DNA of 64,000 nt, from the NCBI GenBank assembly GCA_009908505.1, contig JAAAPD010000003.1, positions 145,282 through 209,281 on the forward strand, in the 5' to 3' direction. Numbering within the stretch: position 1 is the stretch's first letter; each line of letters begins with the position of its first letter. The stretch comes from Alphaproteobacteria bacterium (GTDB taxonomy: Bacteria > Pseudomonadota > Alphaproteobacteria > Rhodobacterales > Rhodobacteraceae). Made by a program: the position numbers and the translations under genes. The notes under the pieces were generated by a model. That model worked only from the letters and a program-made list of their open reading frames with translations. It did no database searches and was not told the DNA's origin. This document shows positions 2,496 to 64,000 of the stretch, one piece after another.

Positions 2496-3965
2496 CTAGC
2501 TGTCGGCGGGACCCTTGCCCAGATGCTTGCGCAGCCGCGACGGCGTCGATTTCTTGCGGTTCTTGTAGGGGTTCTTGTCCCCCTGGGACCGCATGGTCAA
2601 CCGGATCGGCGTGCCGGGCATGTCGAAATCCTCGCGCAGGCCATTGACCAGGTAGCGGGTATAGCTTTCGGACAGTTTCTCGGGGTTGGAACACATCACC
2701 ACGAAGCCCGGCGGCCGGGTCTTGACCTGGGTCATGTAGCGCAGCTTGATGCGCCGCCCGCCGGGGGCCGGGGGCGGGTGCGCCTCCACCATGCCGGTCA
2801 GCCAGCGGTTCAGCTGCGCCGTGCTGACGCGCCGGTTCCAGACCTCGTAGGCCCGCAGAACGGCATCGTGCAGCCGGTCCAGGCCGCGGCACGTCTTGGC
2901 CGAAACGGTGATCAGGGGGGCGCCCCGCAGTTGCGGCAAAAGCCGATCGAACGCCTCTTTCAGCCCCTTCAGCTTGGCCTGCTTGTCATCCTCGATATCC
3001 CACTTGTTGACGGCCACGACCACCGCGCGACCCTCGCGCTCGGCGAGGTCGACGATGCGCAGGTCCTGCTGTTCGAAGGGGATCTGCGCGTCCAGCAGCA
3101 CGATCACCACCTCGGCGAACCTGACCGCGCGCAGCCCATCGGAAACCGACAGTTTCTCGACCTTGTCCTGCACCTTGGCACGCTTGCGCATCCCGGCAGT
3201 GTCGAACAGGCGTACCGGCGTGCCGCCCCAATCCATGCGCAGGGAAATGGAATCCCGCGTGATCCCGGCCTCGGGGCCGGTCAACAGGCGGTCCTCGCCC
3301 AGGATCTTGTTGATCAGCGTGGATTTTCCCGCGTTCGGGCGCCCGACCACGGCGACCTGCAGGGGCTTTTCCGGGGTCGGCATGCGCAAGGTGTCGCTGT
3401 CCTCGGCTGCCGTGTCCTCATCCACCGCGACATCAGTGTCCGGCGCATCGCGGGCGGCGCGGTCGGCGAAGTCATCGGCCAACGGCTGCAGGATCGACAA
3501 TAGCTCGCCCAGCCCTTCCCCATGTTCGGCCGACAGGCGCAGCGGCTCGCCCAGCCCCAGCGCATAGGCCTCCAGCACCCCGGCATCGGCGGCGCGTCCC
3601 TCGCCCTTGTTGGCGCCCAGGATCACATGAGCATTCTTGCGGCGCAGGATATCGGCGAAAACCTCGTCGGTGGGGGTCACGCCCTGGCGCGCGTCGATCA
3701 GGAACAGGCAGATATCGGCCATTTCCACCGCGTGCTCGGTCAGCCGCCGCATCCGGCCCTGAAGGCTGTCATCGGTGGCATCTTCCAGCCCGGCCGTGTC
3801 GATCACCGTGAAGCGCAAATCGCCCAGCCGCGCCTCGCCCTCGCGCAGGTCGCGCGTCACGCCCGGCTGGTCGTCGACCAGCGCCAGGCGCTTGCCCACC
3901 AGGCGGTTGAACAGGGTGGATTTGCCCACGTTGGGGCGGCCCACGATGGCGAGAGTGAAACTCAT
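2496..3965 (-). CDS. der: Ribosome-assembly GTPase Der (EngA)
   Basis: A 489-residue essential GTPase with two tandem G domains, acting in 50S subunit maturation. First G domain: GRPNVGKST at residues 9-17 and DTAGLED. Second G domain: GRPNAGKST near residue 210 and DTAGMRKR, followed by NKWD. A C-terminal KH-like domain ([28 protein letters not shown]) ends in a basic tail. An acidic linker rich in Asp/Glu/Ala separates the G domains. It is the last gene of a minus-strand group with bamB-like and yfgM-like genes, the same order as enterobacterial yfgM-bamB-der. Confidence 0.98.
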
Positions 3966-4012
3966 GGCAGTCGTCCTATCGGATCAGGGCTGCCCGATAC
4001 ACCCTTTGGCCG

Positions 4013-5332
4013 TCAACGGAAAGCCAGCAATTGCCCCCGCTTTGACAGGACAAAGAGCGTGCCGTTCGCCACGACCGGGTTCGAGGTGGCGCCGCCTGGA
4101 ATGTCCATCGTGCCGATCAGGCGGCCATCGACCGGGTCGAACTGGCGGACCAGCCCGTCGGACGAGGCGACGATCAATCGCCCGCCCGCCAGGATGGGGC
4201 CGTAATGCTCGTACCGGGTGCTTTGCCGGCGTTCGCGGGATTCCACGAAACCGGGCAGCTCGACGCGCCAGACCATGCTGCCATCGGTGGCATCCAGTCG
4301 CAGCAGCTCGCCCAGGTCATTGACCATGAAGACCGAACCGGCAACCGGCCAGACCGGCCCCACGGCGCCCTCGGTCACTGTCCAGATGCGGTCACCATCG
4401 GCCAGCCGCAGCGCCGCAAGACGGCCCGAGACATTGCCGACATAGACGCGGTCCGCGTCGATCACCGGATCGCCTGCCAGGTCCGAGATGGTCGAGGCGG
4501 CCTGCCCGGGCCGTTGCCCGGTGACGATCGAGGCCCAGCGCCGCAGCCCGCCCTGCGGGAAGGCGGCCAGGACCTCGCCCGTCGGGAAGGGAAAGATGGC
4601 AATGTCGGGGGTCACGGCAGCCCCGGCGCCGCCGGCGAAATTGGACGTGGGGGGCGTGCCCGACAGGGTCCAGCGCACGCGCCCGGTTTCCAGGTCCACG
4701 GCCCAGGCCCGGCTGTCGCGGGCCACGACATAGGCCAGGCCATCGCGGATCGTCGGCGCCGAGGTGCCCGGCGCATCCAGATCCTGCACCCAGAGCTCTG
4801 CACCGGTCGCTGCGTCCAGCGCCACCAGTTCGCCGAACCCCGTCGTGACCAGCACCGTGGTGCCGTCACTGGCCAGCCCGCCGCCCGACGCGTCGCGCAG
4901 ATTGTCCGAGGCCGGGGCCAGGCTGCGTGACCAGAGCGTTGCGCCGCCGGTCGAGGTCGCGACGACCTGGCTGCGGGAATCGAGTGTGAAGATGCGCCCG
5001 GCCGCCACGACAGGATCGGCCGTGATGCGGTGCCGCCGGCTGTCACCCTCTCCGATCTTGACGGAAAAGGCCGGGGCCAGCGTTCCGGGCAGCGCGGGAT
5101 GGGTGATCGCATGGTCGGGGCCGCCATTGCGATGGGTCCAGTCGGTGTTGGCGACCATCGCGGGCAGGGAAATTGGCCGCGCCTCGTTCGCCATGACCGC
5201 AACAGGCTGCGGATCGCCGTCCAGGTCGGCCCGGATGTCCAGGCGTTCGCCGGGCAGGATCACGTCGCGTTCGCCGCAGGCCGACAGGACTCCGAGGGCC
5301 AACAGCCCCGCCAGAAGTGATTTACCAGTCAC
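4013..5332 (-). CDS. bamB: BamB-like PQQ-type beta-propeller lipoprotein
   Basis: A 439-residue outer-membrane lipoprotein candidate. The N-terminus MTGKSLLAGLLALGVLSAC is a signal sequence ending in a lipobox (LSAC, lipidated Cys near residue 19). The rest consists of repeated beta-propeller blades with GxxxALDAxTGxxxW-type motifs (VALDAATGAELWVQDL, AVDLETGRVRWTL, LLRLDATDGSMVW), as in the PQQ-binding-like repeat family. By family and by its place between yfgM-like and der it is the counterpart of BamB, the scaffold lipoprotein of the beta-barrel assembly machine; it is not a PQQ dehydrogenase. The symbol is assigned from synteny and repeat family. Confidence 0.85.
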   Translation of the reverse strand: MTGKSLLAGLLALGVLSACGERDVILPGERLDIRADLDGDPQPVAVMANEARPISLPAMVANTDWTHRNGGPDHAITHPALPGTLAPAFSVKIGEGDSRRHRITADPVVAAGRIFTLDSRSQVVATSTGGATLWSRSLAPASDNLRDASGGGLASDGTTVLVTTGFGELVALDAATGAELWVQDLDAPGTSAPTIRDGLAYVVARDSRAWAVDLETGRVRWTLSGTPPTSNFAGGAGAAVTPDIAIFPFPTGEVLAAFPQGGLRRWASIVTGQRPGQAASTISDLAGDPVIDADRVYVGNVSGRLAALRLADGDRIWTVTEGAVGPVWPVAGSVFMVNDLGELLRLDATDGSMVWRVELPGFVESRERRQSTRYEHYGPILAGGRLIVASSDGLVRQFDPVDGRLIGTMDIPGGATSNPVVANGTLFVLSKRGQLLAFR

Positions 5333-60555: not shown

Positions 60556-61836
60556 TTACTCCGCCGCGATGGCCTTGCCCTTTACGCGGTCCTCGATCTC
60601 GTCGCGGAAGTTACGGATCAGGCCCTGGATCGGCCAGGCCGCCGCGTCGCCCAGCGCGCAGATCGTGTGGCCTTCGACCTGCTTGGTCACGTCCCAGAGC
60701 ATGTCGATTTCCTCGACGCTGGCCTCGCCCTTAACCAGGCGGTCCATAACGCGCATCATCCAGCCGGTGCCTTCGCGGCAGGGCGTGCACTGGCCACAGC
60801 TTTCGTGCTTGTAGAATTTCGACAAGCGCCAGATCGCCTTGATGATGTCGGTCGACTTGTCCATCACGATCACCGCCGCGGTCCCAAGGCCCGAGCCCAG
60901 CTCGCCGCGCAGGTAATCGAAATCCATGATCGCGTCTTTCATGTTCTCGCCGCGCACGCAGGGTACGGACGAGCCGCCGGGAATCACCGCCTTGAGGTTG
61001 TCCCAGCCACCGCGAACCCCGCCGCAATGCTTCTCGATCAGTTCCTCGAAGGAGATGCTCATCGCCTCTTCGACGACGCAGGGGTTGTTCACGTGACCCG
61101 AGATCGCGAAAAGCTTGGTGCCCGCGTTGTTCTGGCGGCCGAAACCGGCGAACCATTCCGGGCCGCGACGCAGGATGGTCGGGACAACCGCGATCGATTC
61201 GACGTTGTTCACGGTGGTCGGGCAACCATACAGCCCCGCGCCCGCCGGGAACGGCGGCTTCATGCGCGGCATGCCTTTCTTGCCCTCGAGACTTTCCAGC
61301 AGCGCGGTTTCCTCGCCGCAGATATAGGCCCCGGCCCCATGATGCAGGTAAAGGTCGAAATCCCAATCACTGCCGGCGGCGTTCTTACCCAGAAGGCCCG
61401 CGTCATAGGCTTCGTCGATGGCGGCTTGAAGCGCCTCGCGCTCACGGATGTATTCGCCGCGGATGTAGATATAGCAGGCATGCGCATTCATCGCGAAACT
61501 GGCGATCAGGCAGCCCTCGATCAGCGTATGCGGATCGTGGCGCATGATCTCTCGGTCCTTGCAGGTGCCCGGCTCGGATTCGTCGGCATTGACGACAAGA
61601 TAGGCCGGGCGACCGTCGCTTTCCTTGGGCATGAAGGACCACTTCAGCCCTGTCGGAAAACCGGCGCCGCCGCGTCCGCGCAGGCCGCTGGCCTTCATCT
61701 GGTCCACGATCCAGTCGCGGCCTTTCTGGATGATCCCCGCGGTGCCGTCCCAATGGCCACGGGCCTGGGCGCCTTTCAGCGTCCGGTCGTGCATGCCGTA
61801 GATATTGGTGAAGATGCGGTCCTTGTCTGCAAGCAT
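60556..61836 (-). CDS. nuoF: NADH-quinone oxidoreductase subunit F
   Basis: A 426-residue flavoprotein that takes electrons from NADH. FMN/NADH motifs [16 protein letters not shown] near residue 60 and [23 protein letters not shown]3 cluster motif [12 protein letters not shown] near 345. Start at ATG 61836; the track adds 26 codons. Together with NuoE and NuoG it forms the NADH dehydrogenase module. Confidence 0.98.
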
Positions 61837-61873: not shown

Positions 61874-62092
61874 TCATTTCTCGCGGGTCTTTTGCCAGAG
61901 TTTGAACGTGACAACCAGACACCAAATGAACCCCGCCAGCGCGAAGAGCGTCAACAGCACCGCGAAGCGCGGGGCGAGGCCCAGCGCATCGACGATGGCG
62001 GGCGCGAACATCGACAGAAGCGCCGAGGCCACCATCACGAGGGCGATCCGGCGGCCGGCGGCGGCAATGGCGTGTCTGTCCTGATCGGCCAA
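61874..62092 (-). CDS. Small two-helix membrane protein (DUF5337-like)
   Basis: A 72-residue protein with two membrane helices ([22 protein letters not shown] and [21 protein letters not shown]) and a basic C-terminus. I associate it with the DUF5337 family, found next to nuo genes in Rhodobacteraceae. It sits 37 bases upstream of nuoF and seven bases after the Lys/Ala/Pro-rich gene. Function unknown. Confidence 0.75.
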
Positions 62093-62099
62093 ATCGATC

Positions 62100-62762
62100 C
62101 TACTGTTTATCTGTCTTCTTCTCCGGGGCGGGCATGGCGGCCAGCGTCACGGACCCTGTCTTACCAGTGTTGGATTTGGCTTTGTAGACCGTGGTTTCAA
62201 CCTTCTTGGACGACCTGCTGCCCTTGGCCGCAGGCTTCGATCGCGTTTTGCTGGCCGTCGCGGTTGCGGATTTCGGCTTTGCCTTGGCGCGCTTGGCCGT
62301 CCCCCCCGCCTTGGTCGTACCTGGGCGCGACGCGGCCTCTGGCTTGGGTGCTGGGTCCGAACCTGCCGCAGGTTCCGGCGTCGCGGCCGGCCCTGCTGCC
62401 TTGGTCTTGGACGCGGCTTTGGGGGCCGGCTTGGCGGCGGACTTGGGCTTGGACGCGGTCGGCTTGGGGGCCGCGGGCTTGGCCGGATCGGGCGCCGCGG
62501 TCCGCGCGGCAGGCTTGGGATCCGGGCGCTTGGCTTTATCGGCGGCCTTGGCAGGCTTGGGTTGCGCCGTGGTCCCGGTCTTCTGCGCCGGCTCGGCCGC
62601 CGGCATGATCGCCCGTGGACGCAGCGCCACCGCGGCGGGCGCAACGGCCCATTTCACCAGGCTGGCCTGACTGGCCAGCATGGCCGCGGCAGGGGCCGAG
62701 GATTGCAGCCCAAGGCGCAGCATCGCATTCGGCAAGGTCACCAGGGAGTCGGAGGAGAACAT
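62100..62762 (-). CDS. Lys/Ala/Pro-rich low-complexity protein in the nuo operon
   Basis: A 220-residue protein. A short N-terminal region with hydrophobic patches (MFSSDSLVTLPNAMLRLGLQ, ASQASLVKWAVAPAAVALRP) is followed by about 160 residues of repeated A/P/K-rich sequence (KPAAPKPTASKPKSAAKPAPK, KTKAAGPAA), resembling histone H1 tails or the linker of TonB-like proteins. No catalytic domain. The start at ATG 62762 is spaced about nine bases from GGAAAGG. The reading frame is real by position and spacing, but low complexity makes its homology uninformative. Confidence 0.65.
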   Translation of the reverse strand: MFSSDSLVTLPNAMLRLGLQSSAPAAAMLASQASLVKWAVAPAAVALRPRAIMPAAEPAQKTGTTAQPKPAKAADKAKRPDPKPAARTAAPDPAKPAAPKPTASKPKSAAKPAPKAASKTKAAGPAATPEPAAGSDPAPKPEAASRPGTTKAGGTAKRAKAKPKSATATASKTRSKPAAKGSRSSKKVETTVYKAKSNTGKTGSVTLAAMPAPEKKTDKQ

Positions 62763-62891
62763 CGCAAACATCCTTTCCGGGTCCGTCACGAACCCGTTGT
62801 CATGATCCGCGCCGATCCTCCCCGATCGGTGCAAGTCGGCCTGCCCACGTCACGCCGGGCAGGTCGATTGTTGCACTGCAGCATCCATCTT

Positions 62892-63611
62892 TCAATAGAC
62901 GTCGCCCTTTTTCACCTTGTCCGAAAAGTCGGTTGTGCCGCCCTTGGCAAGAACCTTGGCCTGCTTGACCCATTCGTCGCGACTGACACGGCCCTTGAAG
63001 CCTTCGAGGTTCTGATCCACCCATTCGACCTCTTTCTTGCGCCACCCGGCGATCTGGTCGAAATGGTAGACACCCATCGAGTTGAGCAGCTTTTCCAGCT
63101 TGGGTCCGACACCCTTGATCTGCTTGAGATCGTCAGCACCGCCTTCGCGCGGCGCGCTCAGCATCTCGGGCTTGCCGTCCGCGGCCACGGGCTTGGCCGC
63201 CGGTTTGGGTTTTTCCGCCTGCATGGGCGTCTCGGGCTCTGCCGCCTTCTTCGCTTCGGCCGGGGCCGCGTCCGCCGGCTCGGGCTTGGGCATCGGCGCG
63301 GGGTCCGGGGCCGGTGGGGCCACCGTGGCGGCTCGGGTCGCAGCCGCGGCCGAGGTCGGCTCCGAACGGGGCGACGGGTCCTTCGCATGGGCGTCCGCGC
63401 CTTGCCGGGACATATCCTGGCCTCCGGTCGCCGCCGCGCCATTGCCGCCCATCATCAGCAGCCACCAGACGATCACGCCGATGATGACGCCGATCAAGAA
63501 CGAGAGGAAGCCCCCGAAATCGATGCCGAACCTGGCGATCGCGAAGGCCACGACGCCACACAAAATCGCGATGATGATCGCGAAAGTCGATCCGATTGGT
63601 CTGTCACTCAT
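62892..63611 (-). CDS. Membrane-anchored protein with the NuoE-tail HHH-like domain
   Basis: A 239-residue protein. Two N-terminal membrane helices (FAIIIAILCGVVAFAIARF, residues about 10-28, and FLSFLIGVIIGVIVWWLLMM, 35-54), a Pro/Ala/Lys-rich linker to about 157, and a C-terminal domain that begins GADDLKQIKGVGPKLEKLLN, a helix-hairpin-helix-like motif, and continues YHFDQIAGWRKKEVEWVDQNL. The same domain ends the adjacent NuoE, with about 44 of 67 aligned residues identical by eye. The start is supported by GGGAAAGG. Likely a complex I accessory or assembly protein; inferred from context only. Confidence 0.85.
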   Translation of the reverse strand: MSDRPIGSTFAIIIAILCGVVAFAIARFGIDFGGFLSFLIGVIIGVIVWWLLMMGGNGAAATGGQDMSRQGADAHAKDPSPRSEPTSAAAATRAATVAPPAPDPAPMPKPEPADAAPAEAKKAAEPETPMQAEKPKPAAKPVAADGKPEMLSAPREGGADDLKQIKGVGPKLEKLLNSMGVYHFDQIAGWRKKEVEWVDQNLEGFKGRVSRDEWVKQAKVLAKGGTTDFSDKVKKGDVY

Positions 63612-63783
63612 TGGTCTACCTTTCCCTGTCGTGACTGTCCGGCCTGCGGACAGCGAGCATGGGTCGCGGGCTCATGCCCCGACCTTGACAACAGCTTAGG
63701 CAGACACGCCGCGTTTGATAAGGGACTTAATCGGTGCCGGCGGCGATGTTGGCATTCTGGCCACGCCGAAGGTGGCCACTGCC

Positions 63784-64000
63784 CTATTTTTCGGCAAGCT
63801 TGCGGGCCTGTTCGACCCAGTCGTCCCGTTCGATCCGGCCCTTGAACTTCAGGCGGCTATCGACCCAGGCGATCTCTTGGGGACCCCATTTGGCGATCTG
63901 GTCGAAATGCCAGAAGCCCATTTCATTCAAAACGCCCTCCAGCTTGGGGCCCACGCCCGTAATCTGCTTGAGGTCATCGGCCCCGGACATGCGCGGCGCT
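63784..64000 (-). CDS. nuoE: NADH-quinone oxidoreductase subunit E, C-terminal extension (rest outside window)
   Basis: The frame is open to the window edge, so the ATG at 63990 given in the track is probably internal. Upstream codons read APR, matching the APREGGADDLKQ junction of the neighbouring membrane-anchored protein. The visible 71 residues are an HHH-like domain (SGADDLKQITGVGPKLEGVLNEMGFWHFDQIAKWGPQEIAWVDSRL). Rhodobacteraceae NuoE proteins carry such a tail after the thioredoxin-like 2Fe-2S domain; position before nuoF supports nuoE. A free-standing small protein cannot be excluded. Confidence 0.75.
   Translation of the reverse strand, partial: APRMSGADDLKQITGVGPKLEGVLNEMGFWHFDQIAKWGPQEIAWVDSRLKFKGRIERDDWVEQARKLAEK

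Follow-up and report, generated by a model that had tools for sequence, protein, structure and literature searches.

A C-terminal HhH module shared by NuoE and a membrane-anchored protein-O orthologue in Rhodobacteraceae, with nucleoid DNA as a candidate ligand

The closest described system comes from Dinoroseobacter shibae, in whose RC-LH1 complex (8YY9; Wang et al. 2025, PMC12079452) cryo-EM revealed the 239-residue protein-O, with its N-terminal hairpin lying between reaction-centre subunit L and LH1 alpha 11/12 and its C-terminal domain invisible in the structure. The D. shibae gene lies between nuoE and nuoF, the C-terminus of its product resembles that of NuoE, and the authors left both the function of protein-O and the shared NuoE domain unexplained (PMC12079452); the core of the observation made in the initial annotation of our locus was already in print for this orthologous one. 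The same hairpin is named 'Protein LRC' in the D. shibae entries 9lts and 9ltv, whereas 9ltu, of the same RC-LH1 series, lists no LRC chain, and occupancy by protein-O may vary. A second reaction-centre structure with a homologue of protein-O, 9wqv, also holds a reaction-centre M chain. For complex I of P. denitrificans, solved at 2.3 A, the extra subunits NDUFS4, NDUFS6, NDUFA12 and a methyltransferase are listed and no protein-O-like subunit is among them; its NuoE is only 29 residues longer than mammalian NuoE (PMC11522691). The phasin PhaH binds PHB by its N-terminus and, nonspecifically, DNA by its C-terminal HhH domain, according to a review (PMC13052382, citing Salinas 2023).

The window, by which we mean the whole stretch of 64,000 nucleotides analysed, holds two adjacent genes ending in near-copies of one domain (Table 1). 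By BLASTP the last 71 residues of NuoE and residues 153-223 of its 239-residue anchored neighbour are identical at 46 of 71 positions (65%, one gap, E = 2e-30), and over the 66-column core we counted 43 identities, close to the 44 or so previously estimated by eye. NuoE had only been presumed at first because the contig ends at the window edge: the last base of the window is the final base (209281) of contig C38, with the main body of NuoE outside. The remainder of the gene opens contig C51 (1-864, minus strand), runs off the contig edge with matching linker, and is the stronger of the two NuoE family matches in this genome; the tailed-NuoE model NF009040 gave the split gene 464.6 bits on the C51 part and 117 on the tail, set against a whole-protein cut-off of 514. 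The same order is unbroken in Salibaculum griseiflavum, with a 371-residue NuoE bearing the module at its end, the anchored gene, a Lys/Pro/Ala-rich gene and nuoF, and the anchored protein has its nearest named relative in this species (75% identity over 232 residues). In the AF2 model of the neighbour two helices are followed by disorder to about residue 150, and residues from about 160 to 234 form a helical domain predicted with confidence. The module fills only part of the gene, and the long flexible tether to two membrane helices that had been proposed is upheld. The third gene of the cluster, lying between protein-O and DUF5337, gave no match in family profile searches and lacks the HhH module here, as it does in two Salibaculum species.

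Table 1. Features at the nuoE-nuoF junction of the window
Feature	Position	Strand	Basis or remark
C-terminal HhH module of NuoE	63784..64000	-	last 71 residues and stop codon; gene runs on into contig C51; NCBIfam NF009040 positions 318-385, E=1.7e-33
Protein-O/LRC orthologue, 239 aa, between nuoE and nuoF	62892..63611	-	8yy9_O E=2.6e-44 over residues 19-239; 9wqv_a E=3.5e-37
Protein-O two-helix membrane hairpin, residues 6-59	63435..63596	-	AF2 helices 6-29 and 34-59; Foldseek to 8yy9_O, 9lts_A
Protein-O flexible linker, Pro/Ala/Lys/Glu-rich, residues 60-155	63147..63434	-	sequence; low pLDDT
Protein-O HhH module, residues 156-234, ahead of KKGDVY end	62910..63146	-	BLASTP, AF2, profile A1/A2 matches
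Third gene: hydrophobic N-terminus, Lys/Pro/Ala-rich tail, without HhH domain	62100..62771	-	positional equivalent of HhH-bearing third gene in 7 other genera
DUF5337, two predicted membrane helices, ahead of nuoF	61877..62092	-	PF17272 E=1e-18
nuoF	60556..61836	-	identified in window

A PDB sequence search with the anchored protein returned two matches, the 'Reaction center protein O chain' 8yy9_O and 9wqv_a, and on homology and synteny we identify it as the orthologue of D. shibae protein-O (ABV93056.1). The predicted hairpin superimposes on 8yy9_O with a TM(target) of 0.72 (rmsd 1.6) and on 9lts_A with 0.62, the Foldseek E-values being weak. The window organism is itself phototrophic, with nuoE and pufL-pufM together on contig C51. 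A further contig of the same genome, C3 (L012, 1-5563), carries a second cluster of partial pufL, pufM and dxs followed by a protein-O-like gene at 3859-4611, the only such gene that we observed beside puf. A conserved arrangement of a puf-linked second protein-O was considered and rejected, as it was not found in three congeners and as C3, only 5.6 kb long and part of a draft whose contamination is put at 1.5%, may be foreign DNA.

Whether protein-O belongs to photosynthesis was addressed across 61 genera of Rhodobacteraceae, each represented by one genome, 23 of them with reaction-centre genes. With a domain search that stopped at weak scores and may have missed a few degenerate copies, a domain-bearing gene was found directly after nuoE in 37 of the 61, namely in 15 of the 23 phototrophs and 22 of the 38 remaining genera, and six further genera have at this position a protein of 100-145 residues with the hairpin and without the domain. 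Taken together, with membrane helices called from hydropathy only, 16/23 phototrophs and 27/38 non-phototrophs possess the hairpin gene (p = 1), and therefore protein-O cannot be a part of photosynthesis only and needs a photosynthesis-independent role; a reaction-centre-specific subunit as its main role was rejected on this equal frequency. The proposal made for D. shibae, that protein-O serves mainly as an assembly or quinone-channel subunit of RC-LH1, which would leave the HhH end incidental, draws on the resolved position of the hairpin (PMC12079452), on its recurrence in 9wqv and as LRC in 9lts/9ltv, and on the puf genes of the window organism with the one protein-O-like gene right after pufM-dxs. 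We nevertheless judge it improbable, since the cysteine pair of the D. shibae disulfide is as frequent outside phototrophs as within (14/22 versus 9/15), every protein-O-type gene observed apart from that on C3 belongs to the nuo operon, 9ltu is without the chain, and no HhH domain was found by the survey search in three phototrophic genera (G025, G026 and G046). The pair is absent in 14 of the 37 surveyed orthologues, that of the window among them, and because of this Cys10-Cys59 does not define the protein-O family.

The module also occurs on carriers other than these two. Four copies were found in the window genome, on NuoE, protein-O, ribosomal L21 and the protein-O-like protein encoded after pufM-dxs on C3, and the window domain is recognised by the NCBIfam models for PhaH and for the tailed forms of NuoE, L21 and S2 (E 1e-16 to 1e-44). 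NuoE, present in all 61 surveyed genera, is tailed in 49 and L21 in 39, and because six genera are without the domain altogether it is dispensable. Further carriers in these genera are a third nuo-cluster gene with an amphipathic N-terminus (7 genera) and one-helix coiled-coil proteins, and tandem arrays reach four domains in two genera; L026 (876-3491) and L027 (742-4797) encode single-helix membrane proteins with four HhH modules apart on long linkers. The same C-terminal module is shared by a five-helix membrane protein (L022, 1961-3292, minus strand) and an HTH protein (L029, 2225-3910, minus strand). Outside Rhodobacteraceae it stands at the end of NuoE, L21, S2, an ABC ATPase and membrane proteins. 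Ribosomal S2 carries it in three genomes of three families (L241, L242 and L243), and at L245 the ATPase of an ABC transporter, judged LivG-like by eye, has it as its C-terminus. In all 7 loci read from a Rhizobiaceae-like family (group f133), nuoF and nuoG have a second HhH-bearing gene between them; its product has a hydrophobic N-terminus and the C-terminal HhH domain, an architecture resembling that of PhaH, and a tailed NuoE lies upstream (L230-L236). The domain is not restricted to complex I, and a linker confined to complex I was ruled out by the distribution over genera and by the other carriers.

This bears on the suggestion that the domains of NuoE and protein-O pair with one another and thereby fasten the NADH module to the membrane, serving complex I in its assembly or its stability. 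The two genes are adjacent in the nuo operon and their occurrence is associated, with protein-O present in 40 and absent from 9 of the genera with tailed NuoE and present in 3 and absent from 9 of those without the tail (p=0.0004, kinship ignored). The anchored copy does not always accompany a tailed NuoE, however: the domain-bearing neighbour is missing in 15 of the 49 tailed genera and is found beside an untailed NuoE in 3. In six tailed genera the neighbour has the hairpin and no domain, and a single copy of the domain is found on NuoE in G023 and G029 and on the neighbour in G020. With ribosomal and granule proteins also bearing this domain, and with protein-O known from reaction-centre complexes, a dedicated link between NuoE and the membrane is unlikely, and we would give the pairing reading little weight. 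Of the initial annotation, the HhH domain on two carriers, the linker and the possibility that a common partner or nucleic acid is the ligand hold. Its proposal that the NADH module is tied to the membrane finds no support as the sole role: against it stand the distribution, the single-copy genera, the other carriers, the reaction-centre finds and the subunit list of P. denitrificans complex I, which has no such protein.

Comparison of the copies between genomes gave nearly the same identity whether NuoE was set against NuoE (0.633), protein-O against protein-O (0.637) or one against the other (0.629). Within genomes the identity of NuoE and protein-O copies rises to 0.677, a value reached by 0 of 2000 permutations, and in the same comparison no within-genome excess was seen against L21 copies. 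On a maximum-likelihood tree, in which columns are few and most forks unresolved, the label changes 4 times for L21, 25 for NuoE and 22 for protein-O; same-genome copies are sisters in G001, G003 and G012, and the two nuo copies of G078 are both placed within the L21 copies. In G003 (L019) the NuoE tail and the protein-O domain share 65 identical aligned residues (96%). Third codon positions there agree in 0.62 of identical codons compared with a between-genome background of 0.54, so any conversion at this locus was not recent, and recent gene conversion was discarded as the sole cause of the likeness of neighbouring tails. Neither recent conversion nor slow evolution is a simple explanation of the G003 likeness. 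The common ancestry of the domain, its shared family with PhaH, L21 and S2, and the mixing of NuoE and protein-O copies are plain from these data. Exchange and co-selection would both imply that the NuoE and protein-O copies are equivalent in function, and such interchangeable copies point to a common ligand or to an interface that is symmetric, rather than to complementary NuoE-O surfaces; within-genome likeness could be counted in favour of pairing, but the sequences are homogenised and not complementary.

The isolated domain is modelled by AF2 as five helices (pLDDT 88). Foldseek matched it to the N-terminal domain of RadA/RAD51 (TM 0.70, rmsd 2.0), the C-terminal part of NusA and SAM domains including Eph SAM, none significantly (best E 0.17), and in profile searches RadA (E 0.0024) and NusA AR2 (E ~0.005) were matched. 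A connection to trypanosome mitoribosomal bL21m through the top fold match, 6yxx_BS, was dismissed, bL21m being chain AV in that entry. The window copies lie below the gathering cut-offs of the Pfam HhH families, HHH_5 and others (at most 17.7 bits), and the L21 copy of the same genome exceeds that of HHH_5 (30.3 versus 27). The COG assignment of this domain is probably COG3743 (predicted H3TH, FEN1-like); a literature search under COG or H3TH names brought nothing useful. Basic residues are conserved around the GVGPK hairpin (K11, K14 and K19) and beyond it (K53, R55 and R58), and on average the domain carries a negative net charge (NuoE -1.9, protein-O -0.8, L21 -3.1), which does not suit DNA binding.

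HhH domains of the NusA AR2 type bind proteins, and the module may likewise bind a common protein or itself, in the manner of SAM or NusA AR domains, and so cluster complex I, membrane sites and ribosomes. The acidic to neutral charge, the matches to NusA and Eph SAM domains, the tandem arrays and the homogeneity of the NuoE and protein-O copies, which fits a symmetric or common interface, all speak for this. The matches are weak, however, an obligatory pair of different carriers is excluded by the single-copy genera (G020, G023, G029 and G040), and the PhaH precedent, as given in the review, favours DNA; we hold this alternative to be a minority possibility, though a serious one. Nonspecific DNA, described for PhaH, is the sole ligand with a reported experimental precedent in the domain family. 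Nucleoid DNA is the leading but unproven candidate ligand, with a protein ligand as its main rival; a shared protein or RNA ligand for the module is possible.

We put at about even the chance that the module is a mobile C-terminal HhH docking tag on a flexible leash with one shared ligand. As a tether, we infer, this domain of about 70 residues on its disordered leash would allow carriers that are large or fixed in the membrane to attach to one shared ligand on the cytoplasmic side. In complex I the tip of the peripheral arm would hold the NuoE copy, and the protein-O copy would hang by its linker from the membrane hairpin, which could pack inside RC-LH1 or, in organisms without photosynthesis, elsewhere. 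Were the ligand DNA, as for PhaH, the tag would be a nucleoid contact. More speculatively, and in our estimate rather doubtful, one exchangeable HhH address tag in Alphaproteobacteria would attach complex I, photosynthetic or other membrane sites, PHB granules and, through L21 and S2, ribosomes to one scaffold, either the nucleoid or a hub protein. If true, such a tag would organise the interface of cytoplasm and membrane and co-position energy conversion with translation, and protein-O would be its membrane version, borrowed by RC-LH1. Given the kinship with PhaH, L21 and S2 and the frequency in non-phototrophs, the matter becomes less one of photosynthesis than one of a general tethering module whose ligand can be tested. 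Complex I of many alphaproteobacteria would carry a docking domain missing from available structures, and no HhH module was found in PDB chains of NuoE, L21 or S2.

Like D. shibae protein-O/LRC (8YY9, 8YZ2, 9JPB; PMC12079452), the window protein has a two-helix hairpin, a long linker, the same C-terminal domain, a GDVY end and a position between nuoE and nuoF; unlike it, it lacks the Cys10-Cys59 disulfide pair, and its place in RC-LH1 is putative in this organism. RadA and NusA AR2 share the HhH fold, with the first ~40 residues of the domain aligning, but the profile alignments end before the conserved F-K-G-R-x-x-R-D-x-W of the second half of the module. Caulobacter crescentus PhaH (NF045508) has a homologous C-terminal HhH domain (positions 169-233/234, E=1e-21) behind a different N-terminal anchor; the window proteins reach only 78 and 67 bits against its 250-bit whole-protein cut-off, their N-terminal part being a membrane hairpin or NuoE instead of a granule-binding part, and a class-wide search for PhaH proper yielded no protein above that cut-off apart from the Caulobacter control. 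Tailed NuoE (NF009040), L21 (NF008915/NF008916) and S2 (NF008966) bear the same C-terminal module on a Lys/Ala/Pro-rich linker; they differ from one another in the carrier protein, and the L21 copies form a subgroup of their own.
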